DNA of 64,000 bases from Branchiostoma floridae (lineage: Eukaryota > Chordata > Leptocardii > Amphioxiformes > Branchiostomatidae), in contig NC_049990.1 of NCBI RefSeq assembly GCF_000003815.2, positions 9,118,542-9,182,541 on the forward strand, written 5' to 3'. Positions within the stretch are counted from its first letter, which is position 1. The number at the start of each line of letters is the position of its first letter. Below the pieces are notes generated by a model that saw only the letters and a list, made by a program, of their open reading frames with translations, was not told the origin of the DNA and did no database searches. Position numbers and translations under genes: made by a program. Of the stretch, positions 38,280-64,000 are shown piece after piece.

Positions 38280-40686
38280 GGCTTTTATGATCAAAAGAAA
38301 CGTTTCAGGATCGAATACACTTTGCCATTGAGTTTTCTATGTGATCTAACATTATAGTAGTCAGCATAGAGTGATCACAGTATTTAAAACTGTCCAGAAA
38401 TGAGGCACCATTGAAGACATGTTATTGTGAGTAATTACTACTTTTTAAGAAACGTTAGAACAGTTTTTATGTATGTAACCATTTGGTATTCTCAATTAGA
38501 ATTTTAAGACAAAACTCTTTATTCCAAGGAAAATTTATGCTGCCAATTTCATGCATAAGCACAAGTGCCCCCCCCCCCTCACCATGAAGTAAATATCTAA
38601 TGTCCAATAGCCCAATTGTGAGTCCGCTGCGGCAGTGGGCTGTTAATCTACTGCGTTTTGGGTCTTGTATTGGAATGTGAAGCCAATCCCTTTGTCCAGC
38701 ACGTGTACCGTATTACCTATCCAACCATGCCAAAGTCACGCATTCCGGCCTAGTCACAGAGCTTGTCTTGAGAAAAGCACACTTATCGGTGAACGCCATG
38801 GGTACGCCTTCATGTTCTAAGCCCAAGGACATTATGTAGGGGTATACTGTCAATACTAAACCCTATGAAGTCTACCTTGATACCCAAAATGTTTTTCAAA
38901 ACAGGCCGGCGTTGCTTGTTAAGCAGCTTGTCAACATGACAAATGTATAGAAAGAGCATTAATACGGGTGTGGGTGGGGGGTGTGGACGAATGTAACATA
39001 CCAAACTTGTCAAACTAGTTATTCCGTGGCGCCTTCTTGAACACAAAGTTACCTATATGTTTACTATTTTCTCAATTTGTGTATGGATCATAAACAATAC
39101 GTACCTTAATTCTTGACGCCTCGTTAGATTATACGCAGAATCTACCAACTATTGATAACTTTAAGCTTTAAATAGATCGCACAACGAAGAGGTTTAGAGT
39201 CCCAGTGGTAACCTTTTGGAGATAATAACACAGGTGAGGTAAAAAGTCAAAGGGCATGTCCATGACCTTAAATAATGTCTGTGTCTTCAACAGTAGTGGT
39301 GGGCGGAGCTAAACAAACTGTCAGAGTTCCAAAACAACAGCATGGGCGCTAGTCTCTGAGTACCAGACTCCGCTAGCCGTCTAAAGAGTTACGTTATTTG
39401 CACGTAGCGGACTAATCTGTATTGGCGATGACCAGACAAGTCCTCTGATAAGATGTTGCCCCTATTGTGACCAATTCTTCCGTTTTTCGTGTTCGCCAAG
39501 AGGTACACGTATGGGGGAGAATGCATCAATGCTTGGAGCAGAGGATGGGATAACAAGGGATACATTGTACTGGAAAGATAGGCATCAAACCTTGGCGGAA
39601 ACAGGCAGTTACACAATCGAGAAATACCAGACCTTAGTAAGAACAATTTGACCTGTGATTTTGTTACATAGTGATGCTATGTGAATAAAGAAGGTAGCCT
39701 AAGGGTGGTGTGGAAAATGGTAAAGAAGTTCCAAAGTAAATATTCTACAATCGTGGTAGTTATTAGCTGTGTAAACATGTCAGGACATAGTCTATGTGTC
39801 TAGGGTATGGAACCGTTAGCAATTGTTAGATTGTAGCAGTGTAGATAGTCTCCAATGTTCTATACTTTGTGAATCATAATAGTACGTTGTGTGAGTTTTC
39901 TGTTTCATGTATCTTCAAATGCATTTATCTTCACTGATAGCAACAAATGAAGAGCACGACAACCGCTGTCACTATAGCTATGAAACTTCCACAAAAACGA
40001 TCACAAGTTACCTAACGTTAACATTCTTTACAAGAGATTAGAAAAAAGACGCTCATTTCTATTTCTTTGTAAATACAGTCCATAGTTGTGCTTTGAGAAT
40101 CAATACTCACATGATGATATCTTCTTGCCAAACAATGAGACAGAACAGAACAAAATTTTTCAAGGCCACCATCTCTTTATTGTTTGGTTCGTCTTGATGT
40201 TCATGCGAAAGAGATCATCTGCTCCCCTCCTCTTTGAAGGCAAAGCTGCAACAATTTGCATAAAAGTTTATACAAAACTACGCTACTTTCTTCTCAAACC
40301 CGTAAGAACTATTCACAATACCTGTCCGAATTTGTAATGTGTGTGACATATCAATTGTTTCTTAGTTATGAGCAAACAGTCATTCCTAACTTCTTTTCTG
40401 TCAACATATGCAGTGGATGACTATACCAACATGGGTCCCTCACGAATTCAGTACATGTATACAAAATTAATCTAGAAGTAAGGACGTTAACGGTCTGGTT
40501 TTAAATTGGTAGATAGAAGAATTTAACATTATAGCATTTGAAGAACTAGAACATCCCAAAAACACAGGCCAAAAATATATGTATCTAAATACTGGGATTG
40601 TTTTTAAATTGTGAAAACTGAATAGTAGCATTCCGCGGTTGCGTTGCATGCTGGGAAACCAAGATGGCGGGAAATCTTTCTGGCGA
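38280..40686. other. upstream of CaML-A and 3' flank of the CaML-B duplicate
   Basis: No supported gene. A C9 run is at about 38570. From 38731 on, the sequence is repeated at 42427 onward (assembly redundancy, own entry). Confidence 0.5.
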
Positions 40687-41744
40687 TTACTTCTCAGTCA
40701 TCATCGTCACGAACTCTTCGTAGTTAACCTGCGTGGAGAATTGAAACAAAGATGACATGTACATTTTATAATATATTAATGGTGTCTTGAGAGAACAGAA
40801 GCACCGAAACGAAATTTACAAGGTTTGAAATATATTCATGGCAATATCTACACTGTACATTTATTTGGTGCATATTTTAGTCTGTCTTCTTTCAACATTG
40901 CTTCCCTTTAAATTTTGATAAAGTCTCTTTGTCTTCTTGTTTTTATTTTTCTATAGCTCCTCGTGAACTAGCAGGCTCTTACAATGACTCCATAATCTGA
41001 AATGTCTATCAGTTGTCTATCAGACTTCAAGCCTGATAAATTACTAATTCTGGTAACTCTGAGCTTCACTTCGTGTCACCCTGACCTTTACATCATACCA
41101 ATATGCGGTGAGCATGACGAACATATGAAACATGTGATAACTTAGTGTTAGCTTTTACTAATTTTAGACTAGAGTAGTACCTTTGATATTGTTTTTTACT
41201 TCTCTCATGTTACCTGCAATTAGCCCTCGGCAAAGAATTTGCAATAAACATTATTATTATGATAATTGCAGAAACATAATAAGTAACCAAACAGAGAGGT
41301 ACACCAAATATAACACCTCCGTTCATGGGGTATCAAGTGGTAACGTTAGTAATGTTTCCAATTGTAGAGACAATAATGTGAAAATAAGCTGGACCTATGT
41401 TTTAAGTTTCGCTACTTTAGAACATTTGTGTTAAATAGTTTATGTACTTAGACAATTGTCTTGGATAATTATCAGTCCATGTAAACTTCGATTTGTATTG
41501 TCTTGTCTCTGTCAGCAGGGCTAACCATTTGCAATAGCCACAGGCTATAGCTAGCTGGACAGCCCTGGCTGTGTGTATTAAACAGCCAAACCAATAAATA
41601 GATAACGAAGGTTTCCCTAACCTGCCCATCTCCATCTACATCAGCCTCTCGGATCATCTCATCAACCTCTTCATCTGTCAGCTTCTCTCCCAGGTTGGTC
41701 ATCACGTGACGCAGCTCCGCAGCACTGATGAACCCATTACCATC
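40687..41744 (-). other. second representation of CaML-B exons 4 and 5
   Basis: Exon 40687-40728 ([13 protein letters not shown], stop) and exon 41622-41744 ([20 protein letters not shown] ...) are identical to 44383-44424 and 45407-45529. They have no EF-hand 1 and 2 exons of their own, since the first contig breaks at 42088. Best read as the same gene assembled twice, not as a partial paralogue. Confidence 0.85.
41212..41270 (+). mobile_element. LINE 3' tail fragment
   Basis: TGCAATTAGCCCTCGGCAAA then AATAAAC and (ATT)n, matching the 3' end of the LINE remnant at 11980-12020. Also present in the duplicate at 44908-44966. Inside the intron of CaML-B between exons 4 and 5. Confidence 0.55.
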
Positions 41745-42088
41745 CTGTAGACAGGTAGATACAATGTTTAAATGGAATAGATGTTAAGAAAAGCACAAAA
41801 CAGTAAAACAAAGATTCTAAATCTTTTTATATCACTTTGACAGCTTTGGAGCTCAACATACTTACTCGGACCTGCATTTCAGATCGAAATTTTCTTAAAA
41901 CATAACAAGAATCAATATGACACTCAGGATTGACAAGATTATAATTTAGAGGATAAAAAAATGAAATATGTAGAAAAAAGTTAGCTTCGATCTGGAAAAG
42001 GTTTGGGGTTGGGAGTATCCTAGATTTCTTCCTATATTTAGCTCCGGTTAGCTCCTCTGATCGCATTGCAATCAGTTTATGACTTAGC

Positions 42089-42426: not shown

Positions 42427-44382
42427 CAAAGTCACGCATTCCGGCCTAGTCACAGAGCTTGTCTTGAGAAAAGCACACTTATCGGTGAACGCCATGGGTA
42501 CGCCTTCATGTTCTAAGCCCAAGGACATTATGTAGGGGTATACTGTCAATACTAAACCCTATGAAGTCTACCTTGATACCCAAAATGTTTTTCAAAACAG
42601 GCCGGCGTTGCTTGTTAAGCAGCTTGTCAACATGACAAATGTATAGAAAGAGCATTAATACGGGTGTGGGTGGGGGGTGTGGACGAATGTAACATACCAA
42701 ACTTGTCAAACTAGTTATTCCGTGGCGCCTTCTTGAACACAAAGTTACCTATATGTTTACTATTTTCTCAATTTGTGTATGGATCATAAACAATACGTAC
42801 CTTAATTCTTGACGCCTCGTTAGATTATACGCAGAATCTACCAACTATTGATAACTTTAAGCTTTAAATAGATCGCACAACGAAGAGGTTTAGAGTCCCA
42901 GTGGTAACCTTTTGGAGATAATAACACAGGTGAGGTAAAAAGTCAAAGGGCATGTCCATGACCTTAAATAATGTCTGTGTCTTCAACAGTAGTGGTGGGC
43001 GGAGCTAAACAAACTGTCAGAGTTCCAAAACAACAGCATGGGCGCTAGTCTCTGAGTACCAGACTCCGCTAGCCGTCTAAAGAGTTACGTTATTTGCACG
43101 TAGCGGACTAATCTGTATTGGCGATGACCAGACAAGTCCTCTGATAAGATGTTGCCCCTATTGTGACCAATTCTTCCGTTTTTCGTGTTCGCCAAGAGGT
43201 ACACGTATGGGGGAGAATGCATCAATGCTTGGAGCAGAGGATGGGATAACAAGGGATACATTGTACTGGAAAGATAGGCATCAAACCTTGGCGGAAACAG
43301 GCAGTTACACAATCGAGAAATACCAGACCTTAGTAAGAACAATTTGACCTGTGATTTTGTTACATAGTGATGCTATGTGAATAAAGAAGGTAGCCTAAGG
43401 GTGGTGTGGAAAATGGTAAAGAAGTTCCAAAGTAAATATTCTACAATCGTGGTAGTTATTAGCTGTGTAAACATGTCAGGACATAGTCTATGTGTCTAGG
43501 GTATGGAACCGTTAGCAATTGTTAGATTGTAGCAGTGTAGATAGTCTCCAATGTTCTATACTTTGTGAATCATAATAGTACGTTGTGTGAGTTTTCTGTT
43601 TCATGTATCTTCAAATGCATTTATCTTCACTGATAGCAACAAATGAAGAGCACGACAACCGCTGTCACTATAGCTATGAAACTTCCACAAAAACGATCAC
43701 AAGTTACCTAACGTTAACATTCTTTACAAGAGATTAGAAAAAAGACGCTCATTTCTATTTCTTTGTAAATACAGTCCATAGTTGTGCTTTGAGAATCAAT
43801 ACTCACATGATGATATCTTCTTGCCAAACAATGAGACAGAACAGAACAAAATTTTTCAAGGCCACCATCTCTTTATTGTTTGGTTCGTCTTGATGTTCAT
43901 GCGAAAGAGATCATCTGCTCCCCTCCTCTTTGAAGGCAAAGCTGCAACAATTTGCATAAAAGTTTATACAAAACTACGCTACTTTCTTCTCAAACCCGTA
44001 AGAACTATTCACAATACCTGTCCGAATTTGTAATGTGTGTGACATATCAATTGTTTCTTAGTTATGAGCAAACAGTCATTCCTAACTTCTTTTCTGTCAA
44101 CATATGCAGTGGATGACTATACCAACATGGGTCCCTCACGAATTCAGTACATGTATACAAAATTAATCTAGAAGTAAGGACGTTAACGGTCTGGTTTTAA
44201 ATTGGTAGATAGAAGAATTTAACATTATAGCATTTGAAGAACTAGAACATCCCAAAAACACAGGCCAAAAATATATGTATCTAAATACTGGGATTGTTTT
44301 TAAATTGTGAAAACTGAATAGTAGCATTCCGCGGTTGCGTTGCATGCTGGGAAACCAAGATGGCGGGAAATCTTTCTGGCGA

Positions 44383-47300
44383 TTACTTCTCAGTCATCAT
44401 CGTCACGAACTCTTCGTAGTTAACCTGCGTGGAGAATTGAAACAAAGATGACATGTACATTTTATAATATATTAATGGTGTCTTGAGAGAACAGAAGCAC
44501 CGAAACGAAATTTACAAGGTTTGAAATATATTCATGGCAATATCTACACTGTACATTTATTTGGTGCATATTTTAGTCTGTCTTCTTTCAACATTGCTTC
44601 CCTTTAAATTTTGATAAAGTCTCTTTGTCTTCTTGTTTTTATTTTTCTATAGCTCCTCGTGAACTAGCAGGCTCTTACAATGACTCCATAATCTGAAATG
44701 TCTATCAGTTGTCTATCAGACTTCAAGCCTGATAAATTACTAATTCTGGTAACTCTGAGCTTCACTTCGTGTCACCCTGACCTTTACATCATACCAATAT
44801 GCGGTGAGCATGACGAACATATGAAACATGTGATAACTTAGTGTTAGCTTTTACTAATTTTAGACTAGAGTAGTACCTTTGATATTGTTTTTTACTTCTC
44901 TCATGTTACCTGCAATTAGCCCTCGGCAAAGAATTTGCAATAAACATTATTATTATGATAATTGCAGAAACATAATAAGTAACCAAACAGAGAGGTACAC
45001 CAAATATAACACCTCCGTTCATGGGGTATCAAGTGGTAACGTTAGTAATGTTTCCAATTGTAGAGACAATAATGTGAAAATAAGCTGGACCTATGTTTTA
45101 AGTTTCGCTACTTTAGAACATTTGTGTTAAATAGTTTATGACTTAGACAATTGTCTGGATNNNNNNNNNNNNNNNNNNNNNNNNNNNNNNNNNNNNNNNN
45201 NNNNNNNNNNNNNNNNNNNNNNNNNNNNNNNNNNNNNNNNNNNNNNNNNNNNNNNNNNNNTCCATGTAAACTTCGATTTGTATTGTCTTGTCTCTGTCAG
45301 CAGGGCTAACCATTTGCAATAGCCACAGGCTATAGCTAGCTGGACAGCCCTGGCTGTGTGTATTAAACAGCCAAACCAATAAATAGATAACGAAGGTTTC
45401 CCTAACCTGCCCATCTCCATCTACATCAGCCTCTCGGATCATCTCATCAACCTCTTCATCTGTCAGCTTCTCTCCCAGGTTGGTCATCACGTGACGCAGC
45501 TCCGCAGCACTGATGAACCCATTACCATCCTGTAGACAGGTAGATACAATGTTTAAATGGAATAGATGTTAAGAAAAGCACAAAACAGTAAAACAAAGAT
45601 TCTAAATCTTTTTATATCACTTTGACAGCTTTGGAGCTCAACATACTTACTCGGACCTGCATTTCAGATCGAAATTTTCTTAAAACATAACAAGAATCAA
45701 TATGACACTCAGGATTGACAAGATTATAATTTAGAGGATAAAAAAATGAAATATGTAGAAAAAAGTTAGCTTCGATCTGGAAAAGGTTTGGGGTTGGGAG
45801 TATCCTAGATTTCTTCCTATATTTAGCTCCGGTTAGCTCCTCTGATCGCATTGCAATCAGTTTATGACTTAGCCGAGCTCGAGCTTGATTCGTCAAAATT
45901 CAAAGAAACGTCATAATGATAGTAGACTGGCGAAGACTACTAGACAATCCCAGTAGCCTAGTTGACCAGCCACAGATGATATTGCTCACAGCCATGGCAT
46001 GGAGAAGTCTGGGCAGCCATGGTAGGCTATATGTATAAACAGAGGCTTAACTTAAGCACCATTTGTCCCTGAAACACAGCTATTCATGCCCCTACCTTGT
46101 CGAACACTTTAAACGCCTCCCGCAGTTCCCCTTCCTCGTCGCCATCCTTCTTGCTTCGAGCCATCATGGTGAGGAATTCTGGGAAGTCTATGGTTCCGTT
46201 TCCGTCCGCGTCAATTTCATTTACCATATCCTGCAAAAAACCTTAGGGTTTTCACACTTGTATGGTTCAAGCTGTCACCAAAGGCCGGCCACTAGAAAAT
46301 ACTTATAGTATGTCGAATCATACGCTGTCGTGTACGTCCTCTTGTTTCTTGTCACTTTTTTCTTAGTTGACTGATATATCTAACTCCATTGATCTTGATA
46401 TCCAATAAACAAGCAAAACTGTGTCTACAGAAAAATGCAATGATCTACTTGACAAACTAGAATTGTTCTATAAGACAAATCTCTCGGCCATGCTACTATT
46501 TGTCACTACGTATACATACATGGCATGAATAGTCGTTTCCTTGCATGGTCTGTGCTTTACATACCTAAGCTTATCTTTCAGCTTTATTCAAATAATACAG
46601 ATGTCATATGATAGAATGAAATATCATCTTGCCAGGTAAAACAACAAAATGACATGCATATTAAGAAAAAACGTACACGCAGTTCAGCTTCAGTTGGATT
46701 TTGACCCAGCGATCTCATGACAGTCCCGAGCTCTCCAGTTGTGATGCTGCCATTCCCATCCTTATCGAACAAGGAGAAGGCCTCTTTGAACTCGGCGATC
46801 TGCTCCTCTGTCATTTTCTCTGCACCGCCCATCTTTCCCTGGGGACAAGTTAAAAATATCAAGCCACTATCAACTCGTGAAAATGTTTATCCGTTATGAC
46901 ACATTTTGATGCAGAAGTATTTGTCGTTTTTCATTTATTGTTGTATTTGTTTTTACTTTTCAGCCTTGACCTTGGTCTTCCATTATGATGACATTGGGAG
47001 ACGAACATCAAGCCATCTTACACCACCGCAACCAAATGTAACTCGCGCGTGCCACCATCTTAATCGCATGTCATCTGATTAGAGACTTGATAAGACGATT
47101 GGCAAATATTAAAGATAATGCCTTAAGGAAAAGGGGAAGATCCATCAGATAGCAAAGACAGTAGCACTTTCGTCTCGTCTAGCTTTTGTGCTTGTCATCC
47201 ACAATGGTGGCAAGACTAAGCCTGTCAGACTAAACTCGTCCGACAAGGTATAACCGTCGGCACGTTTCNNNNNNNNNNNNNNNNNNNNNNNNNNNNNNNN

Positions 47301-49066: not shown

Positions 49067-50823
<1,757 letters not shown>

Positions 50824-52174
50824 TTTTTTTTCGATCCGAGTGACGTTATGAGAAAGACGTTAGAAGTTGCGTCAAAAGCTGTGAGCAGATCTAGCCTAAC
50901 ACTGGGGCGTTTACAATTCGGATGTTCTGTTATCTCCGCCTTTTTGAACACATTGTTGGTGACGCCCAAGGTATGATCGGGGTCAGGGGTAGATCTCTGT
51001 CAAGTGTTTTTTCTTTGAACTTATGCTTATTCATCAAAGCTCATATCGACCTGTAGGACGCTTTCTTTTCATTGAGGTCATGAGGGAAGAGGCAAGGGTC
51101 AGAGAAAGTATATAGTACTAGTACAGTTTACATCATTTAATGAACTAATGAGTCTTATAGGTCTATATACACAATTTTATATACATACTGCAAAATACAT
51201 AATAGTGGGGGCTGCTACACGAGTTCATTTCGGTCGTTTCCGTTACTTTAAGAGTGTATTAAAGGAAGCCAGAATGTTGGGGCTGTGCGTATGTCTGGTG
51301 ACTGTTCAAGATGTTGGTCCCACGGTAGGCGATGACTCTTCTGAAGGTTTGTCGCTGAAGTTTTGGGACAGCAAGTTGATTGCTTGTGCGTTGTCTGTGT
51401 GTGAGCAAACCAAGAGCCCTATATTATCTACCATGCACAAAGCTACAATGTGCGAATGGGTGATCATGATGCTTCGAAGTGAAATTTACATCGTGAGGTC
51501 CTTTATGTGAATTACATCAAACACAAACCAATGTCACCTGTACAAGCTACACGTATTCGAAAATTGAAATCATTTTTGTTGTTGGGATCGGATGACTTTG
51601 CATCATTAAAATTGGGTATGATAAAATACGCTATCAGTGGGTCAGTTACATTGAACAAAGTTATCACCGCCCAATTTCTATACTGGTCTTATTCTTTTGT
51701 GTAACGACCTTTGAAACCATATATTGTTGTGAAAACACTAAAGCACGGAGTGACTTCCATACGTGCATTCGTTTATGTCTCTGTCTGTCTGGTAATTTGG
51801 TCGAAGGAAAGTATGTAGAATTTTGGCAGCAAGGCATGATAAATTTTCATTATCAGCTGAGTAGTAGCAGACACAGCAGATATGTCTACCCACCCATAGA
51901 CATAGTGATGAGTGCGTGTGAAGATGTCATACCACAACTGTATCGGCAGAGGGTGCTTCAGTCTGCACTCAGGAAACACAACAGCATCACGGTGACCTTG
52001 CAGCCTACACCACGAATTTCGTCGCTAGTGGTGGAAGGTCTCGTGCATGACATATACTAACCTAATAATGAAGAGACGCGTGACAAAGTTTCAGAGTTAC
52101 ACCATCTTTATTGCCAAGTTGCCCTTATTGGTCACATTGTAACAGTGGGGGTTTAAAAGTTACCATATGCAGCT
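50824..52174. other. intergenic, CaML-C to CaML-D
   Basis: Holds two long plus-strand open stretches (51148-51510 and 51797-52060). Neither matches a family I know, neither has a good splice context, and they sit between tandem genes. Could be decayed mobile DNA. AATAAA for CaML-D (minus) at 52107-52112. Confidence 0.4.
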
Positions 52175-55100
52175 TTATTTCATGGCCACCGCCTTGACGA
52201 ACTCTTGATAGCTGATCTACAGAGGAAATGGAAACATAAAAAGTTTATGAGTTGGGAATACGAAACAGCACAAAATAGAAAGCCCGATAAAACACTTAAA
52301 ACGCGTCAAAAACCTCTGCATGTAGAGTAGTCACATCGTACGCAAGAAGATTTTTGTTCCGGTTCTGACCTGCCCATCCCCATCCCTGTCTGCCTCCCGG
52401 ATTATCTTCATCAACTCTTCCTCCGTCAGCTCCGTCCCCAGGCTGGACATCACGTGACGCAGCTCCCTCTTAGTGATGTACCCGTTACCATCCTGGAAGT
52501 TATGATATTATCATATAGACTACAATGATTTGGTTATGTAGATGACATCCTCTGGGCACCTAAACGCCAAGCAGATCCTACGATGGCATAAGATATTACT
52601 AAACTGGCCAAGGAGTGTAGTCGACTAAGAGGTGTACCCCGGTAGCCAAACCTACTCCTAGGCCGGCTTCACTCCTCTGGCATTTGATACTATCTTATGC
52701 TACCGTGGGATCTGATTGGAGATTATGGGCACCTCCAAACTTATGTGAGCGTGCGATTAAAGTAAAAAGAAGGGCCTGTGAAAATGCAGTTGATTTCCTT
52801 ATGTTCAGGAGAAATGTTAAACCAACGAGGTTCCCTTTTCAACCTCCTTGGTTAAATACCGATGATTGGCCACACAGAACATGGTATACCAAACAATAAA
52901 CCCCATACTATTCTTCTTTGAGATCATCTCCTCTGACTTTGGAAGACTTCTCTGAAGACCCTTCTATACTTTTCGGCATAGATGTACTGATATGTCAAAC
53001 ATATATCAGGTAAAAGGTATTCCACGACCTTAGAATTCGTTTTTCGTTATTTTCTTACAATTTACTAATTATGCAACTTTTTACACTATAGACACATTTT
53101 TTTTTGGAAATGGACAAAACTGTGCTCGGAAGCCATCCATATAATCAAGGCAATGTAGCCTAAGATAAGGAGTGCAGGGCACAAATGTCATTTCTTTACC
53201 CCCCGTACATGTGCTTGGAATGGTATCGCTCAGCCGGTTCAGACCGGTTACGGTGTGACAGCGTATGGAATCTTCAATGACAATACACTTAGAGGCACCC
53301 TTCTCCTGGTTATTGTCTCATCCTTGCACGAGTATCTCTGTAAGGTGATTCTCACAGTAACAAGGCTGTTCTACGGGCTATTTTATGCCCCTGTCCTTGG
53401 TGCTGAAATACCCCAATGCGGGAGCTGCCCAAATTTGAATTCCATTTCGAGAATAAGAAAAACAAACACTATTGGGCGCTTGATGCAGTTACATTGTGCA
53501 AGGCGTGTTTGAACTACACTACAGTTTAAATATAGGATATTGTTAGATCAAAGTATGCAGCTCACTTTAGCTTCATAGAAATCATTGGATACATAATGCG
53601 CAATACTTATATCAAGTATATGCGTGGTAGGAAAGAACCTCTGAGTTTACTTTACTTATAGCAATGACTTTAATGACCCATTGCCGTTGGTTATGTGTCA
53701 CTATCTAGCCTACAAAAAACGGTTAAACCTTCTCGGTGGCATGTGATTTTCTATGGATTTCTTTGACTGAAATATTGCGAGTTTTTTTTTTTCTGATTGC
53801 TCGCACGCATGTTCTGACCTGGCCAAGCCTTACTCGATTGTTAACCCTGAAACCACATGATATTCGTGAGTGATCATAAAACGGCGCAAATCAGTCATAG
53901 AAGCCATATAAATTTCCACAGACACATTTACCCGCACAGACACATGTTTTGGGGGCACCGGTGCGGCACTGCGGGGTTCGTTCACTGCGGCACTGTTGTT
54001 TTATTTTCGCCGATTTTTTTTTGTAAATATTTTATATTGCGTAACACGTGAAAGTATGACATACAAGACAACAAAATATACAAAACGTAAGAAAATTCGT
54101 TCTTTAATTTATCTCTGAAATTCATTGAGTAATCTTTCAAATCCCGCAGTGCTGCACCGGTGCCCCAAATGCAGAGCTGAAAAGCAGTGAGATACCACAT
54201 TAACTGTTACCTTGTCGAATGCACGGAATGCATCCAGTAGCTCCTGTTCCGTGTTTTCTCGTGTGCTCTTTCGAGAAACGAGGCGCAGGAATTCCGAGAA
54301 ATTAGTGGTTCCATCGCCATCCACGTCAGCCTTCTTTATCATATCCTATAAAATATCAATATGTAACTTCTACGTGTGATATGAATTGTAACAGTTATTA
54401 TAAAATACTATTATGGTTGAAAATTGAATACTCTTCCAGGTCATTTCATTTGCTCTTTTGGTGCACTAACAAATAGTTATAAGTAGCTCTATTAATCACA
54501 ATATGCTAAAAGAAACAGCCAGAAACTGTTGACATGTAACAATATCATTTTTTAAGTGGCCAACGTTCTGACAGGTTCAACATGTCAAATTGTGCAGTGA
54601 ATTACAAGTATTAGTATTGACATTTTTTCATGCAATTATTTTTGTTTTATGATTTCCCTTCTTTTTGTATTTATTGTGTTTTAATACTATTTCAGTTATC
54701 GACTTTGGCAACTACAAAAAAAATCAAGACCTAGGATAGGATGTGTCACATGTTCTAGTTTTCCTAATTTGTGGCATTTTCCTGGCGTTTTGCATTTCTT
54801 GATCTTAAATTAAATTAAATTCTTTCATTTGCATTTTTAAAAATTTATTCTTTACATTTCTATCTTTCATTGCATACCGCATACAGAATATGATGATCTA
54901 TTCTTACATTCTATAAAAGCCGTTTAATTGCACACCAAATTTGCCAGTATATTTCGTGCAATCATTCGGATGATGCAACAAAGCGAAGTTATCCAGCTGT
55001 ACCGCACCACTACTTTTTTTTCATTTCATGCAATCAACAGAAGTGTGAGATTATGCGTTGTGCAATCAATTGGCTTCTACTGTATCAGGAACTTCTACCG

Positions 55101-56959
55101 TGAGACATTCTGTGAATAAAATTGAAGTTAATACCCGAAGCTCGGCGTCAGTTGGGTTCTGCCCCAGCGCCCGCAGCACGTTTCCCAACTCGGCAGTGGT
55201 GATGTGCCCATCTCCGTTTTGGTCAAACATATCGAAAGCCTGCCTGTACTCGGCTATCTGTTCCTCCGTCAGTCGGTCAGTGCTCGCATGTCCCTGTGTG
55301 AGAGTGTCAACATCTATACATTATCCCTTCTTGGGTTATTCTCCTTCAAAGTTTGAAACTAACCCGGCTCCTGCAATTCCATAAAGCCGCTAGGGGACCA
55401 AACATGCACCACTTACTCTCTGCCCGAAGAGCTATCTACCACTAAAAGTCGCGACCGTAGGATGTCGATGACTCGAGATATCAAACCCAGAAGTTCCGCT
55501 GCAGTACCGTAGCAATTTGCTAGGGGGCACAAAATTTAATCGTTTCAAGGTCTCATCAAGTCCTATCCACGTACCAAATAACAAGACAATCCATTTCGGC
55601 ATTCTGGAGTTCTGCTTAGCTTGTCGACTACATACAAACACAAACGCTACGAAGGTAACGGACACGACAAAAGAACAGGGGCTTTCATAAGGCCATCTAC
55701 AGCCATGCATACCAACATGTGGATACAAAGCTACCTACAGTCATATGTATAAATCGAGATATTGAATTTGATGTATCATCTGCAGTTGAAAAGAAAATAA
55801 TTCATTAATAGCGTGGATTTGTCAGTTTGTCGGAGTTTGTTTATGAAAGCAAACCACGCAACGCATGGGCTATATCAAATATATTTGGAAATCTACTACA
55901 CAATGTCTATAGTATGGCCTCTCTTTATCTTCCTATATTTATTTGGTTACAAGGACAAAGTTCTCAGTATGCGTTCCTTTTTGTTTGGTAATGTCCAATG
56001 AATTATTAACAACGTTCACTGTAAATAAATGCTTACAACAATAGTGGCAAAGATCGAATCAAGGGTTACACGAGATAACGGGACATTTGACGACAATCAT
56101 CGAGGAAAGGAACATTGCTCTGGTATGGCAACGTTTGTAAATGATTTTATAGACGCGGTTTGGTGGCACACATGCTTTACTTCTATGGACATAATGCCAA
56201 TGTAGAAACAGTACCAGTGTCTACACTACAACTCTCTCGTTTGTTGATATTTCTAAGATATGTACCCGTTTCATTTTCATCTATGTCCATCTGTTGCTTA
56301 ATAAATATTAGTCCTGTTGGCTAAATCGGTTACGAAAAATCACGGAAAAATTATTTTATTTACAAAATGACATATTCTAAGATTTAAGGCAAAATGTATT
56401 AAAAAATACACCACGTACTACTTCTTGCTTTTTAAAAAAAAGCAAGAAGTTACATTCAGTGACATGTTATTTGGAATAAGCATATAAATGTATAACTTAG
56501 ATACTAATGAATATTTGTAACGCTGTTTTTGTAACGTTGTTTTTGAAAATAGGTTATTTAGGGATATCAAGTCCACGGACAGTGCAATGTTTTGAAAATA
56601 ACCACAATATTTTGAAAATATTCCAAGTTGAAACCGCTGACCGCTGACTTGATATCCGAGGTATCATATCATTATCATGTCCTGTTCATATATCTGCCTA
56701 CGTAGGCCAATTTATTTACAACTCATTGCAAAAACGAGATAATGCTTTATGATACTCACTAGATTGTTTATACTGTTATATTATATTACATTAGTTGTTA
56801 GTTATTTGTATTAGTATATAGTTGTTCACATTGCCATACATTGTAACTGTTACAATTGTTGCGCAATAAAGTTCTTCTTCTTCTTCTATCTAAAAACAAC
56901 GGATATAGGTTACCCCGCGGATAAAGGTGAACTAGCGTTATTACCTTTGTTCCTGCCAT
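52175..56959 (-). CDS. calmodulin-like protein, CaML-D (divergent)
   Basis: Exons from the right: 56945-56959 (MAGTK), 55135-55293 ([20 protein letters not shown] ...), 54211-54345 ([20 protein letters not shown] ...), 52370-52492 ([20 protein letters not shown] ...) and 52175-52216 ([13 protein letters not shown], stop TAA). 157 aa. All four calcium loops are intact ([48 protein letters not shown]), so calcium binding should persist, but the target-binding surfaces differ much from calmodulin. The trimethyl-lysine motif LGEKLT is LGTELT, so the site is lost. The central linker is [20 protein letters not shown]. Intron 1 begins 4 bp from a MITE end. AATAAA overlaps the stop (52174-52179), with another at 52107-52112. 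Confidence 0.93.
52563..52735. mobile_element. MITE with AGATCCTACGATGGCATAAG ends
   Basis: Left arm AGCAGATCCTACGATGGCAT and right arm ATGCTACCGTGGGATCTGAT are inverted over about 23-28 bp; inner GGCCAAGGAGTG/CACTCCTCTGG arms too. A right half of the same family occurs at 60480-60560 (CTATACTCCTTGGCCAGC ... GGATCTGCTTGGAGAT). In CaML-D intron 3. Confidence 0.65.
55490..55600 (-). mobile_element. minus-strand fragment of the 1.1-kb element
   Basis: Reverse complement words TTGGTACGTGGATAGGACTT, GATGAGACCTTGAAACGATT and TTTTGTGCCCCCTAGCAAAT correspond to the first module of the element (compare 16415-16470). Intron 1 of CaML-D. Confidence 0.55.
56418..56450. repeat. perfect short palindrome
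   Basis: ACTTCTTGCTTTTT followed at once by AAAAAGCAAGAAGT, with a few A's between. Intron 1 of CaML-D. Confidence 0.7.
56518..56940. mobile_element. TAACGCTAGTTCACC MITE split by a LINE 3' end
   Basis: Left part TAACGCTG... with GGGATATCAAGTCCACGGAC; right part ACAACGGATATAGGTTACCC ... GGTGAACTAGCGTTA. Between them about 56670-56890 is a foreign segment ending GCGCAATAAAG(TTC)n, which looks like a LINE or SINE 3' tail (compare TGTATAATAAAGTTATC near 58020). Confidence 0.65.
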
Positions 56960-57249
56960 TTCGACGAAATAGGACGTCTAGTCACAAGCTGTGGGTAGAG
57001 ATATTCGTGTTGTTAACGGTTAGCGTGGCCTTCTGAATACTCTTGTTTTGTTGTAACGCTAAGCGATGATTACATGTCATGAGGCGGATCATTGTGTATC
57101 AGTAACCATACCACGTGTTGCTGAAATACATAATTTATGAGATGATAACATCTGTAGGTGTGACGCAGGAGAGTTGACAACTAGAGTTCCACGAACACAG
57201 CCAAGTGATATCGTTCTATTTCAGAAACATGAATTAGCTGGTAGATAAT

Positions 57250-57291
57250 CTATGTGCTCAGGATCGTTTTCACGAACTTTTCGTTGTTGAA
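57250..57291 (-). pseudogene. relic of a CaML last exon
   Basis: Reads FNNEKFVKTILST and a stop, aligning with [13 protein letters not shown] of the cluster. TTCACGAACTTTTCGTTGTT (plus strand) resembles GTCACGAACTCTTCGTAGTT of genes B and C. The AG acceptor is missing and no other EF-hand exon is near. Lies between CaML-D and the tail exon at 58.7 kb, as expected for a decayed array member. Confidence 0.6.
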
Positions 57292-58218
57292 ATATGGAGC
57301 AAATGTAATGCAAATAGAGCACCTGTAGATAACACTTGCACATCTCAATTTAATGAATAACATCTATCTGCAAAGCTACGATCTCCACGCTTTCGAAGTG
57401 TTTGCGTTGATGAGTGTAGTTATTTGAATACGCCGTCAGAGGATTGGCATGAAGTGAGTCGGAGGATGGCCGCATAGGTGCTAGATAGAAGAGAGTATCC
57501 AGAGTCTTGTGGATGAAGCAAACATTTAGTTCACCATTAGCTCACCCATGTGCACAATTACTAGAATGCATTTTAACACATGAACACCCTCCCAAGCCCT
57601 GGGGTAAACCATTTTCAGTGCCTTCCAAGTATTCGGCCCAGCTGTTGTATCTTGTGCTATATGCTCTAACCTGTATTCAGACAGGTCGACATGAACGCTG
57701 TGATTTTTGACGTCTTGTGTGAACTGGTAGAATTTGGTGTACCCAATCTATTCAAACTTGTATGGAAGATTCATTAAAGTGGGCGTGTGGTTCACAACAA
57801 ATGCCCCACAAGCCAAGACAGTAGTCTAATCCTCAGGGGAATACGTCTTGGGGCCGGAGGTTTGATTATACCCCTGTCACATTATCCACCGGATCTTCGG
57901 GCGTGTCGATGGAAGATCGGTCATATTTAAGATCGACAGAGGTTTGCGCGTATTTTTCACCCGAAAACCGTCCGTCCCTGTCACATATAAGCTATGCTTT
58001 GTACCTTGTACAATTGTTGTATAATAAAGTTATCATTATAAGCGAGGCTCGGGCGATTGTCGCAAAATCGTCGTCCGTCTTGGACCAGACTCTGTAATTT
58101 GTGGGGTAGAAACGTTATGCACGAGATGTACTTAGTTGTTCTTTATATAAAAGGGAATGTTCGCATCTTACGTTTGACTACGAAAGACCATATTTTGCTA
58201 TCTAATGTTCTGCTCCAG

Positions 58219-58251
58219 CAAGGAGCTTTTATCAGTGATAAAAGCTCCTTG
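58219..58251. repeat. perfect 33-bp palindrome
   Basis: CAAGGAGCTTTTATCA, a single G, then TGATAAAAGCTCCTTG. Confidence 0.85.
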
Positions 58252-58686
58252 TTGGATCCAGTGACTTGTAATGAATCTTTCATAACGTTGGATTTTATGC
58301 ACAATTCATACGTATACGTCTATTCCGGGTTGGAAGTTTTTGTACAACAGCTAACCCTTTAGCAAGAGTTCTCTACAACAGCCTAAAACAAATAACATAA
58401 ATCAGAACTGCAGTTAAACCGTTTTATTCAGAAAATCAAAGTTGACCATATCAATATTATAATAATAACCATATCTATTTGTGAATAAGTGTATATCCCG
58501 TAACATCGCCGAATGCATCCCAGCTGTTAACTTGTAGCACAATTCCAGGGCTAGACTATTAGCTAAGAAATACAAAGAAATGTTTTAACATGCTAGTCTT
58601 GCTATATGTATCTTAGGTCACCTTACATTACTCGTGGATGCTTGAAAGCAACTTATTCGAATCATTGAGAGAATGTGGGGCTACTC

Positions 58687-58926
58687 TCAGTCTTCCTCCT
58701 CTTCCTCTTCTTCCCCTACTTCGTACTCGTCCTCTTCCCCTACTTCGTACTCGTCCTCTTCCCCTACTTCGTACTCGTCCTCTTCCCCTACTTCGTACTC
58801 GTCCTCTTCCCCTACTTCGTACTCGTCCTCTTCCCCTTCTTCGTACTCGTCCTCTTCCCCTTCTTCGTACTCGTCCTCTTCCCCTACTTCGTTCTCGAAG
58901 CTCTTAACGAATTCTCCATACTTGAC
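58687..58926 (-). CDS. last exon of a CaML gene with an acidic repeat tail
   Basis: After an acceptor (CTGTCTCTGCTATAG) the exon opens VKYGEFVKSFENE, the end of EF-hand 4 at exactly the usual calmodulin intron position (compare VNYEEFV), then runs into seven near-identical units of eight residues (GEEDEYEV or GEEDEYEE) and ends GEEEEEED with a stop TGA: 79 residues, frame intact over 240 nt. Calmodulin ends about nine residues after this EF-hand, so the tail of roughly 65 residues is an unusual extension. Function unknown; an acidic Tyr-containing tail could bind calcium weakly or basic partners. The exons for EF-hands 1-4 are not recognised upstream (59-64 kb), so it may be a fragment, or those exons may lie beyond the window. 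Confidence 0.7.
   Translation of the reverse strand, partial: VKYGEFVKSFENEVGEEDEYEEGEEDEYEEGEEDEYEVGEEDEYEVGEEDEYEVGEEDEYEVGEEDEYEVGEEEEEEED
58703..58900 (-). repeat. 24-bp minisatellite encoding the acidic tail
   Basis: The plus-strand unit GTACTCGTCCTCTTCCCCTA plus CTTC starts at 58723 and recurs every 24 bp (58747, 58771, 58795, 58819, 58843, 58867), seven copies. Variation is confined to CTAC/CTTC. Because 24 is a multiple of 3, copy-number change keeps the frame. Confidence 0.92.
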
Positions 58927-59260
58927 CTATAGCAGAGACAGGAATGGTCAACAATCTGTCATAGTCTATGCAGCGGATGTCCTTATCTGAAAAGCTCAAC
59001 AACTTCCACAACAACTTCCAGTTTATCGTGTCATAGGACGAAGTTTTAAACTTTGTTTTCAACAGGCCGAATGGAGTGCCAAGTTGTTTCACCCCAATCA
59101 TCATCAAAATTCTTGTTATTTCTTCTTCGCGAATAGGTGATTGAACTGATAGAATCGATTTATCTGCAAAAACTGTTCTGTGTCTTCTGTGTCTATTGTT
59201 AGAATAATAATAATAATATAAGATAAAACTGGCACCCATGATGTAATCATAATGAATGAA

Positions 59261-59327
<67 letters not shown>

Positions 59328-59328
59328 C
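59261..59328 (+). repeat. (AGT)n microsatellite
   Basis: About 22 perfect units of TAG/AGT. Confidence 0.97.
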
Positions 59329-59380
59329 CCATAGCCTTTTGAATGAATGAGTGAACGAATAAATAGATTAAATGACGGGT

Positions 59381-59454
59381 GAGTGAGTGAGTGAGTGAGT
59401 GAGTGAGTGAGTGAGTGAGTGAGTGAGTGAGTGAGTGAGTGAGTGAGTGAGTGA
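59381..59454 (+). repeat. (GAGT)n microsatellite
   Basis: About 18 units of GAGT, 50 bp from the (AGT)n run. Confidence 0.97.
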
Positions 59455-59499
59455 ATAAATTGATGATTTATCATCATCAGGTATAACAAGCATATCTCA

Positions 59500-60960
59500 G
59501 TCACAGGCAGCTGAATTGAATACTTTTTGGCGACGCCCCAGGGGCGAGCCTAATATTATAGTTTGCGACCGTTTGACAAGAATTCCCAGAATTTCGTAGG
59601 CATGTGAGGAATTTTTACACGCATGCGTAGTATTTTCATCTGAGTATTCCCCAGGGAATTTGTTTCGATGAGGTTTTTAGTATGTTTTGGGGGAAATGGG
59701 TATAATACGATGACAAAATCGATGTAAAGAACTATGAATATTATGTTAAGTTTTTTATCCTTTTTCGTTTCACGTATTAAGTCTGATATGTTTTGAATTG
59801 TTAAAAATCTATTGCTTTGTAGGTGGTAACATGTAGCCAAAGCATTGTTTAGTGTTAAGTTCTCCGACCGACCAAATGACTATACAGCACATTACATTTT
59901 ATAACAAATTACCAGATATTATGTAGCAATAGGGAAGGTAAGTGGGTCAGCAATATATTTTGGTTTGCATTTAGGACCATTTGGTGTATAGATGTCGTGT
60001 ATGTATGAGGATTGTGATGTTTTGTATGAGGGTTTTTATTTCTTTGTGTTATGTCATGTATGGTTGTGTGACTCGTGCTATTTCACGATTTTTTTGTGCT
60101 GTGATGTTCATTTGATTTTTTTCTGCAGTAATATGGTCGCACAGCCCAAACCATCGCGACCAGGGCTCGCGCTAGTCAGTCGATTCACTCTGTAACCTTA
60201 GGGTTGTCATGACGACGTTTACCTGTGTGCATATAGAGGGAGAGAGGAAATATATGAATAAATTGATTTCACAATAAGTGATAGAAACTAGGAAACTTTT
60301 GTTTGTCCGGATCGGTGGAAATTAAATTATTCTGTCAATTACAACACACAACAATACATCCGAGGATGCTAACGTGTCATCACTTTGACCGATGAAGACT
60401 ATATCTCTCATAACCAGAGGTAATCTCGAACCACATCCACGGTGGCGTAATATATAGCATCAAAGTACCGGTGCCCATTTGACTCCCTTTGGCCGGCTAT
60501 ACTCCTTGGCCAGCTTTGATACTATCTGATGGCACCGCAGGATCTGCTTGGAGATGAAACCAGAGGGAACAAAAACGCGGTAACTTTGGTGGAGCCCTAG
60601 TGTCGAAACGTAAAAGAAGTAAAAGAAACACAATACACTGCCGATCCGAGTACAATTGTAAAATAATGATTATTACAGGATTCTGACACATATGGGCTCC
60701 ATATGGAAGCCTCCGAATACCATGACGCAGGGGTATTTGTCTGCTGACCAGTACCTAGAGACTTGAGGATTCTGAGAAAGGCTATCTTGTGCCCTCTTGA
60801 GACCGTCGACAGATGCGGCTCGCTTAGAGAATGACATGATCTATGGGCATGTGGTTTTAATAGTCTGTCCCCGTCGGTTACATAAACAGTAGTGATGTTA
60901 GGACCGGTCCGAACAGATGAACTAGAGAAGCGAGAGGAGCAAATGAAGTGGGAATAAAGA
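59500..60960. other. no gene recognised
   Basis: Contains a half copy of the AGATCC MITE family (about 60480-60560) and otherwise no structure I can assign. Confidence 0.4.
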
Positions 60961-61016
60961 ACTGTGCGAATAAAGATCATTCCGGCCGGCAACGACAACA
61001 TTGCGTCTGTTCTCAC

Positions 61017-61070
61017 TTTCTTTTCTTGCCGGAGATCCTCTCCTCTACGACCAGCCCCGACTAGACTCAT
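61017..61070 (-). CDS. possible short first coding exon
   Basis: ATG at 61070 opens MSLVGAGRRGEDLRQEKK and then a donor GTGAGAAC, phase 0. CaML-B to D also have a very short, basic first coding exon ending in phase 0, so this could start the gene whose last exon is at 58.7 kb. The link is speculative: exons 2-4 are not seen between. Confidence 0.25.
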
Positions 61071-61404
61071 TTACACAATAAATACGAACACATCAATCTC
61101 TATTTCTCGGCTTGGCTTCGCGCAAACGAAGACACAACAATACACATGTGGAAACTAACGTTTCGGCACAAACGACTGCAATATGCAGTGCACAGTGCTA
61201 GGGTGACACTAGCCTAACGTAAAACTGAGAATACCGAATCCGTTACCTATCAAACAACTAATACAGCTAACTGCAACAGAAATCTGACTTCTATATACGT
61301 GAAGAACGCTAGAAAAAGTGATTGACAAAGCGAACTTCTAGACAACGACTACAGCATCAGTAGCCTGTAAAAAAACAGAACGAGAAAAGTCATAGAGTAC
61401 GCTC

Positions 61405-61790
61405 ACCGCTTTTAAACTGCTTGGTTGGCAACAGGGAATCAGGTCGCTGGTGCAGTTAGGGCTACAGGCGGACACAGCGTGCGGACGGCGGGCGGATCGA
61501 TGGGAGGATGGCAGCTCCGGTCCGGCAACCGTCGGTCAATTAACGACTCGTGCAGTCTTCAGCAGTAAAGCACGATAGAAACGTGCAGGACTAGTCCACA
61601 GGCGATAAAGGGTAAGAGAAACGCAGAGTAAAAGATGATTGAGAACGGGGACTCCGGTAACAAATCGTATCTGTGACCACGAGAGACACAAGCCTTTGTT
61701 GTTGCTTGTGCGGCCGCCAAAGGGCAAGTGAATGACTAAGAATTCCAGGAAGACGGCCTCATATAGTGCTGCTATCTTCGGCCAATCAGA
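61405..61790 (-). promoter_or_regulatory. promoter-like stretch on the minus strand
   Basis: Inverted CCAAT box (CTGATTGGCC, about 61781-61790), then TATATGAGG (TATA-like, 61757-61765), then about 330 bp of more GC-rich DNA ending AAAAGCG|GTGAGCG at 61405, a good donor. This fits a TATA promoter with a noncoding first exon, or an LTR-type promoter. No transcript evidence. Confidence 0.3.
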
Positions 61791-62035
61791 GATCAGTAAA
61801 CAACATCTGGATTCACTAACAAACCACCAAACACTGCCGAAACATAAACACAGATAGATAAAGACTAATTCATACACAACACAATACGCCTGTAAAAAGT
61901 GCCAAACGCTACAAACTACCACAAACGGGTCTAATATGACATAAAAATGGGACACATTTACTTTATTCTGCAACCTAAAATAGCTCAAAACAACAATGGC
62001 GAATGAGAATATTAACCCTGAACCTTGTTAGTATT

Positions 62036-62086
62036 AAGTTTTAACGGCTACATTGTTTCCTGTTTATTGGCGAAGCGTAAAAGGTG
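62036..62086 (+). repeat. 50-bp direct repeat (also at 63485-63533)
   Basis: AAGTTTTAACGGCTACATTG and TTTCCTGTTTATTGGCGAAG recur as AAGTTTTAACGACTAAATTG and TTTCCTGTTTACTGACAAAG about 1.45 kb to the right, same orientation. They could be the ends of an old composite element. Confidence 0.6.
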
Positions 62087-62947
62087 TGCTTCAACGGTCG
62101 GCCGTATGATTTTTGCCCGTCCTGATATTATCTAGTCTTATAACAATAACGAGTTCAGCTTGTCATTAATCAGTGTTAAGGCGTGCGACGGAAACATCCG
62201 GGACCTACATAGGGTGTTTAGATCCATATGTTCGAAGACATCGGCGAAAATAACCCGCAACCCATCCCTGGACAATCCGTCCCAAACTAGGCATATTGTC
62301 CACTATCTAATGAATAATGTCTTCTGTCGAATAGCTTAGTTCATTTTTGTTTATCATCCATCAAATACTGAGCCATTTCAAATTCGAAAACTTCCGTTAA
62401 ATATACTGTCCCGGTTTTACTGACCTCCTATTTTCTTGTTCCTAAATGTGACTTCATGGAGATTTCAACTCTTAGGTATCATCATCATCATCACCCCATA
62501 ACTCTGAGGTATATACTAGACCTCTAGTCTCTAATAAGGTACAAAAAAAGGTCACGTTTGTATCCTCTCCGCTACATCTATCTTCTATTCTACAGCTGTT
62601 ATACTGGGAGAAAGATTTTGTTGTTTCGATTAGATATAACAAAATCTAACAACATTGATGTCTTTTCTTCGTACTCAACGATGGGGGTCGGGTTACCAGG
62701 ATGTAATTGACACCAGAAGTATAACTAATTTGGTGACCTGATAATGTCAGAGAAGCCAAGACAAATGACCCACAGGCTCCTCTAGGGGTCACAGGTATAC
62801 AGAAGCGGTGGGAAAACAGTTCAAACAAACAAACAAACAAACAAACAAAGAAAATTAATGTTTTACGTGGTTGACTTATGTAAGTTAGTGAAGTACCGTC
62901 GGGATTTGGATACCGTCAAACCCGCAGACCTGTTTAATCTCAGTTTT

Positions 62948-63400
62948 TACAGATTTTGTGTTACGTGATAAACACCCGTTGCAGATTGACTTTGTGCGAT
63001 TCGATCCAGAAAACCTCCCTAAAGAAGAGCCCACCTGGATAAGATACCAGCATGGTGCTCGCCCTTCTGCGGCCTTACAAGTGCGCATCACGTTATTGTT
63101 GGGTGGAGCGCTGATTTGCGCTTTTCAACATTATGCAGTGTAGATAATGTCTCCGCCATTTGGACCGCGAACGACCTTGCATACACATACCTCAAACCCT
63201 TTGCCATGGATGTGCGACCTTCACGCAATAAAACGCCACCGGTGCAAGGAATTGTTCACGCCCCGGCCCCCCTTACCTATGAGCGACTAAAGACCACCAT
63301 ATCACGGCCAGAGTTAGTCAATTTCAAAACAGTTAGATGTCTGTCACCTAAACAACACACATTTCGTTTAATTGTTCCCTTTTGTCATTCATTCATAATA
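62948..63400 (+). other. unrecognised coding-like stretch in two overlapping frames
   Basis: After TTTTTACAG (62950) one frame reads DFVLRDKHPLQIDFVRFDPE and then NLPKEEPTWIRYQHGARPSA to a stop at 63141. A second frame from about 63116 continues DNVSAIWTANDLAYTYLKPF and PPVQGIVHAPAPLTYERL. Composition looks protein-like, and the change of frame suggests a decayed gene or mobile-element ORF. Not recognised. It lies between the two 50-bp direct repeats. Confidence 0.25.
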
Positions 63401-63888
63401 GTATGATGACCATGTGTTTATTTAAATGGAAGATGCCTCTCTTCCCACAGGTACACAATGCTAAAAAAGTTAAAACTACTTCTAAGTTTTAACGACTAAA
63501 TTGTTTCCTGTTTACTGACAAAGCGAAGATAAATAATAAATAAAGGATATCCGCGCGTGCGCAATTGCATCATCCCTTTGGAAGGGAATGACTCAGAAAG
63601 GGGTTGACGGATGGACGTGTTGACAAGTACCTATGTAAAGTGTCGCGATCCGTATGTATTAACGATAAATAACCCACAGCTCGCCCTGATAATCTGTCTA
63701 ATGTCCTTGCACTTGGCCTACCTTCTAGAAGCTAAAACAGCCTGCAATTACTTCTTGCTACCTCCGGTTTGGAAGTCAGGTTCTCTTCATAGGTGAGACG
63801 TAGAAGGAAGAAGTTCACATTTTCTATTATTCTAAGAGTTGTTAGTAATGCAATAGCCGCCGTGCTATCGATACAGCGGTTCTGACAT

Positions 63889-64000
63889 CCGTATCCCCAA
63901 GTTGTGTCCGTACACCCATGTAGTGTCCTTACCCACAAGAAGTATCCATACCCCACAGTGGTGTCTATACCCCAAATTGTGTCCGTCCCCCAAGTTGTGT
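63889..64000 (+). repeat. degenerate 19-bp tandem repeat at the right edge
   Basis: About six units of the form GTATCCCCAAGTTGTGTCC with drift (TACACCCATGTAGTGTCC, TACCCCAAATTGTGTCC). It runs off the window. Confidence 0.75.

Follow-up and report, generated by a model that had tools for sequence, protein, structure and literature searches.

The window analysed is a stretch of 64,000 nucleotides of the Branchiostoma floridae genome (C12:9118542-9182541; genome of 513,431,437 bases in 431 contigs), and it was extended by the 100 kb of scaffold that follow it, so that 164 kb were read and coordinates above 64000 continue the window numbering. Between about 34.5 and 126 kb of the extended stretch, the minus strand was found to carry calmodulin-like (CaML) exons. 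Self-comparison of the 57-83 kb region related three genes, here called A, B and C, and gene A is, by its homology, one of three divergent neighbours within this tandem CaML cluster. Its last exon and part of its last intron lie in the window (Table 1).

Table 1. Features of gene A and its surroundings located within the window.
Feature	Position	Strand	Basis or remark
Last exon of gene A, stop TGA at 58689-58687	58687..58926	-	Acceptor TCTCTGCTATAG, phase 0
Minisatellite with 7.9 tandem copies of a 24-bp unit (98% matches)	58709..58897	-	TRF
AATAAA poly(A) signal about 260 nt past the stop	58423..58428	-	Matching flank, also in gene C at 79026-79021 (extended)
3' flank/3' UTR, homologous in pieces to gene B (71155-71747) and gene C (78347-79401, extended)	57568..58686	-	68.8-90% identity
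Last intron of gene A, portion within the window (whole 58927-69639; exons 2 and 1 beyond the window)	58927..64000	-	Sequence homology, splice sites
Left copy of 8-bp target-site duplication ACTTTTTG; right copy 69492-69499	59522..59529	.	Gene B has one copy at the corresponding site
Window part of the insertion (whole 59530-69491)	59530..64000	.	Self-comparison with gene B

Gene A comprises three exons with phase-0 junctions, which together give a stop-free spliced frame of 147 residues (27+41+79). Exon 1 (70456-70376; C12:9188997-9188917) corresponds to MAEQEEQDLQEENNPPPLTDIFKQFDK and is followed by the donor AAG/GTAAAG, and exon 2 (69762-69640; C12:9188303-9188181) corresponds to EGNGYITRDEIRQGMSENGQELGDEELNEMLKEIGIDEDGK and is followed by the donor AAG/GTTAGA, slashes marking exon boundaries. 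The second donor is the usual one in this cluster, since GT[T/C]AG, and not GT[A/G]AG, was present at the EF3-exon ends of 13 of the 14 CaML copies (35104-113124; 12 exons taken from the motif, 11 of them with GT[T/C]AG, and two more read separately, both with it). The last exon carries 79 codons before its stop, and its boundary reads tctctgctatag/GTC AAG TAT GGA GAA TTC GTT AAG AGC..., with an acceptor rated good at the calmodulin last-intron site. Both the position and the phase of this intron within EF4 are of the calmodulin (CaM) type (DGK/VKYGEF, phase 0, compared with DGQ/VNYEEF in copies of the cluster). The first-pass annotation had placed this exon at the conserved calmodulin intron site, beginning with the end of EF-hand 4 (VKYGEFVKSF), in a tandem CaML array, and both statements held: it is a CaML-type last exon with a proper acceptor in phase 0, and the upstream EF-hand exon fits it in frame and phase (EIGIDEDGK/VKYGEFVKSF). 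The acceptor, frame, repeat and stop that had been read directly were all reproduced on the minus strand.

The position of this exon is no chance resemblance. A survey of the 164 kb for the last-exon motif behind an AG on the minus strand returned 16 rows, two of which (69639 and 73524) were dropped as read-through of the preceding EF3 exon. Twelve of the 14 remaining candidates have a stop 12-15 residues past the intron; one, in gene B, enters a run of N, and one is gene A. Two stretches of another EF-hand cluster on this contig (C12:10.896-10.976 Mb and C12:11.016-11.076 Mb, 40 kb apart) were surveyed with a slightly wider last-exon motif behind AG, and an acidic array was found in neither of the two last-exon matches. 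When a shortened version of the tail was run by local tblastn (E<=0.01) against the 164 kb and loci L001-L008 and L019-L032, it matched only gene A itself.

Other observations were made along the same stretch. Two CaML copies at 38731-42088 and 42427-45873, beside N runs, are 99.93% identical over 2,736 bases and 100% over 613, so that either a tandem duplication took place very recently or haplotypes stand side by side here. At 28396-28744, about 58 copies of the telomere-like hexamer CTAACC (91% matches) lie far inside the 22.97-Mb contig, not at its end. On the plus strand at 31051-31917, a 288-codon open frame with mucin-like Thr/Ser repeats runs over imperfect 36-123-bp repeats, and a 282-codon frame is likewise open on the opposite strand.

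The body of gene A departs from the calmodulin plan. Exon 1 begins like gene B exon 1 and ends like the second exon of gene B (PLTDTFKQFDK), indicating that an in-frame deletion of EF1, the intron and EF2 fused the two, with a junction at about 70420. The four EF-hands in two lobes are consequently not found in gene A; gene B keeps all four, as also recognized by Pfam. In the spliced gene A product, Pfam EF-hand_7 matched residues 19-78 with 48.4 bits (cut-off 30), that is, one EF-hand pair, and PDB sequences gave 381 matches at E<=0.001, the best 60 of the 381 being headed by EFCAB6 and calmodulins. The canonical Ca2+ ligands are not all kept in EF3 and EF4: by the loop numbering that we take to apply, gene A has Glu at EF3 position 3 and Gly at EF4 position 1, and gene B has Asp at both. 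The 5′ flank of gene A is homologous to those of gene B (71.2% over 617 columns) and gene C (69.4% over 556 columns).

The last exon encodes VKYGEFVKSFENEV followed by (GEEDEYEE)2(GEEDEYEV)5 and GEEEEEEED, and then the stop. Read by codons, the array consists of seven 24-bp units at 58884-58717, with the two GEEDEYEE units first and the five GEEDEYEV units next, and TRF reported it with period 24, 0 indels and a score of 357; a 24-bp minisatellite encoding a seven-unit acidic tail with a Glu-rich end, as proposed from the sequence initially, was therefore recovered. It is an in-frame tandem array of near-identical units, as expected of a coding minisatellite. Coding VNTRs, or in-frame minisatellites, have periods that are multiples of 3, near-identical units and length changes that keep the frame; gene A shares with them the period, the near-identity of units and a probable in-frame change of length, and differs in that its array sits on the C-terminus of an EF-hand protein and is seen in one assembly. 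That the repeat frame is open says little by itself about use: five of the six frames are stop-free across the array. The tail amounts to 65 residues with a calculated charge at pH 7 of about -45, and the whole predicted product to about -61. Dense Glu/Asp runs beside a Ca2+-related domain are also present in acidic low-affinity Ca2+ buffers such as the calreticulin C-domain and calsequestrin, to which the gene A tail may be likened in composition.

The last intron of gene A has received a large insertion. The segments 58889-59529 and 69492-69773 of gene A match 72788-73386 and 73379-73658 of gene B, respectively, so that a stretch contiguous in gene B is split in gene A, and ACTTTTTG occurs twice in A and once in B; together these are the signature of a roughly 10-kb insertion with an 8-bp target-site duplication. 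The insertion is nominally 9,962 bp long, of which 2,946 are N, so its real length may differ. Inner inverted pieces were found at 59872-60003 and 68126-68247 (75.8%); a clear terminal inverted repeat was looked for in the insertion and none was seen, and none of the 10 open reading frames tried from it had a Pfam match at E<=0.1. The same intron carries (TAG)22 at 59261-59327 and (GTGA)19 at 59379-59454; a GTGA run is also present in the gene B intron (73160-73255), so this microsatellite is probably older than the duplication. The loss of EF1 and EF2, the insertion and the low constraint described below had escaped the first-pass annotation because they lie outside the window.

The two sister genes bear on the origin of the tail. 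Gene B has exons at 77796-77650, 76433-76308 and 73647-73525 and a last exon from 72825 (INYEEFIKSLENDE), which turns acidic at the same place as gene A (ENDE, then D or E) before entering an N run at 72781-71750. This run may stand for a gap in the assembly or for sequence that was withheld, and as it starts inside acidic codons, one might guess at a longer array there. Gene C has exons from 81482 and 80527, at 79830-79708 and from 79448, the last corresponding to INYEEFAKSINM and a stop. Its stop in the last exon (79448-79380) comes 12 residues past the intron, and an in-frame acidic remnant follows it (NQTEDEEED, then TGA), with EDEEED aligned with acidic codons of gene A and the same final stop. 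Over the tail end, stop and 3′ flank, A 58619-58708 and C 79312-79401 are 90% identical. The aligned EDEEED and TGA of gene C and the ENDE of gene B suggest that the acidic C-terminus came first: most likely, a short ancestral acidic end was expanded in place in gene A and was shortened by an earlier stop in gene C.

Gene A shows little sign of constraint, as seen in its altered Ca2+-loop residues and in the comparisons with its sisters. The A/B dN/dS, counted without the repeat and the codons flanking the deletion junction, was 0.64, from 18 replacement and 6 silent changes in the 75 codons that could be aligned. Gene C served to polarise the changes in 51 codons, which placed 9 replacement changes and 1 silent change on the A branch and 2 and 1 on the B branch, 4 being left unpolarised. 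Moreover, the exon is no better kept than the intron, with 111/123 exon bases and 123/136 of the following aligned intron bases identical between A and B.

These results leave room for a young relaxed gene or a relict, two readings that have the same anatomy and differ in use. As a relict, gene A would be a decaying copy with EF1-EF2 deleted, a 10-kb intron insertion and damaged Ca2+ loops, and its tail would be a neutral minisatellite in a gene of no further consequence, with a frame kept open only by a stop-free unit whose 24 bp are divisible by 3. The 9:1 ratio of replacement to silent changes on the A branch, the A/B dN/dS and an exon no better preserved than the intron all fit this reading, as do the openness of most array frames and a simulation in which 10-15 random changes in 55 codons left 61-71% of copies stop-free, so that the open frame by itself does not show use. 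However, the three exons, their splice sites, the poly(A) signal and the 5′ flank have all been kept, and both the deletion and the array preserve the frame. We regard the relict as a serious but lesser possibility; with its frame, its splice sites, the AATAAA in common with gene C and the homology of its 5′ flank to those of B and C, gene A is somewhat more probably expressed but loosely constrained. The likelihoods that we attach to the rival readings overlap and do not sum to one.

The remaining alternatives concern how the exon is used or how the locus came about. The first-pass annotation had taken the tail for a foreign minisatellite captured as a new C-terminal extension, a view in keeping with the absence of a tail from 12 of the 14 last-exon candidates and with the 98% internal match, which makes the 24-bp array look young; the in-frame acidic codons and final stop of gene C and the acidic beginning of gene B speak against it, and capture is now unlikely. 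It is also conceivable, yet quite unlikely, that the EF3 exon remains unspliced and continues as ...DGKVRLKDFILISISNLKQTCFLMCYVMIPEQLCS, the tail exon being unused or alternative. The continuation does keep an EF-like pattern alignable in A, B and C, but the GT[T/C]AG donor recurs at nearly all EF3-exon ends of the cluster, including those of CaM-like copies with a VNYEEF exon next, INYEEF is intact in B and C, and gene C has Asn (VRLLNF) where A and B have Asp. Mis-assembly of a gap-rich cluster could in principle have produced the deletion junction or the array length, considering the 13 N runs in the 164 kb, some of them inside the insertion and next to the gene B tail, and the almost identical copies at 38.7-42.1 and 42.4-45.9 kb beside N runs. 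Nevertheless, the exon, array and 3′ flank share one N-free stretch (50103-64000), the deletion junction lies in another (69298-71749), and the A/B divergence of about 10% is too large for collapse, all of which makes such an artefact very improbable.

In the whole model that we favour, with some reserve, gene A belongs to a divergent CaML trio, has been rearranged and had its tail expanded in place. Genes B and C suggest that the ancestor was a CaML in which four EF-hands and introns at CaM-type positions went together with a C-terminus that was short and acidic. In the lineage of A, an in-frame deletion linked the beginning of exon 1 (some 9-12 codons) to the end of the EF2 exon, so that a single EF-hand pair was left, and the element entered the last intron with its target-site duplication, leaving the splice sites untouched. 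Before or after these events, acidic codons (EEDE..) were probably duplicated as a 24-bp unit, which slippage or unequal exchange would have multiplied to the seven copies seen. If made, the product would be an EF-hand protein of 147 residues with one lobe and a polyanionic tail that is presumably disordered. The loops of this product should bind Ca2+ more weakly than those of B or C, given Glu at EF3 position 3 and Gly at EF4 position 1, and the tail might serve chiefly to bind cations with low affinity and high capacity, or as an electrostatic arm.

A CaM multigene family in B. floridae is cited from Karabinos and Bhattacharya 2000 in the available part of PMC4987107, and two CaM genes in amphioxus are mentioned from the same source in that of PMC6171432. 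Gene A resembles the amphioxus CaM/CaML family in the last-intron site and phase of the CaM-like copies of the cluster, in its EF-hand pair and in its tandem setting, and differs from it by the missing EF1-EF2, the Gly at EF4 loop position 1 and the acidic repeat tail of 65 residues. According to the available part of PMC5983762, plant CMLs differ in length and carry N- or C-terminal extensions; gene A shares with them a CaM-like body and an added terminus, but theirs is an unrelated lineage and no acidic repeat tail is described in that part of the source. Among the literature matches listed, mostly open-access and judged from titles and abstract starts, no CaML with an acidic repeat tail was found.

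A further-reaching proposal, speculative and rather unlikely, would see in A and B two live CaMLs, the first with one lobe and the second with two, whose acidic tails can expand and in which the repeat number sets tail charge and cation capacity, yielding a length-polymorphic Ca2+ buffer. If gene A is transcribed, it would be a clear case of a CaML gene rebuilt stepwise by lobe loss, intron insertion and in-frame repeat expansion into a long polyanion, and it would offer a system to test tail length against Ca2+ binding in an EF-hand protein. If it is not transcribed, the locus would show, in good preservation, how a tandem duplicate decays while its frame survives.
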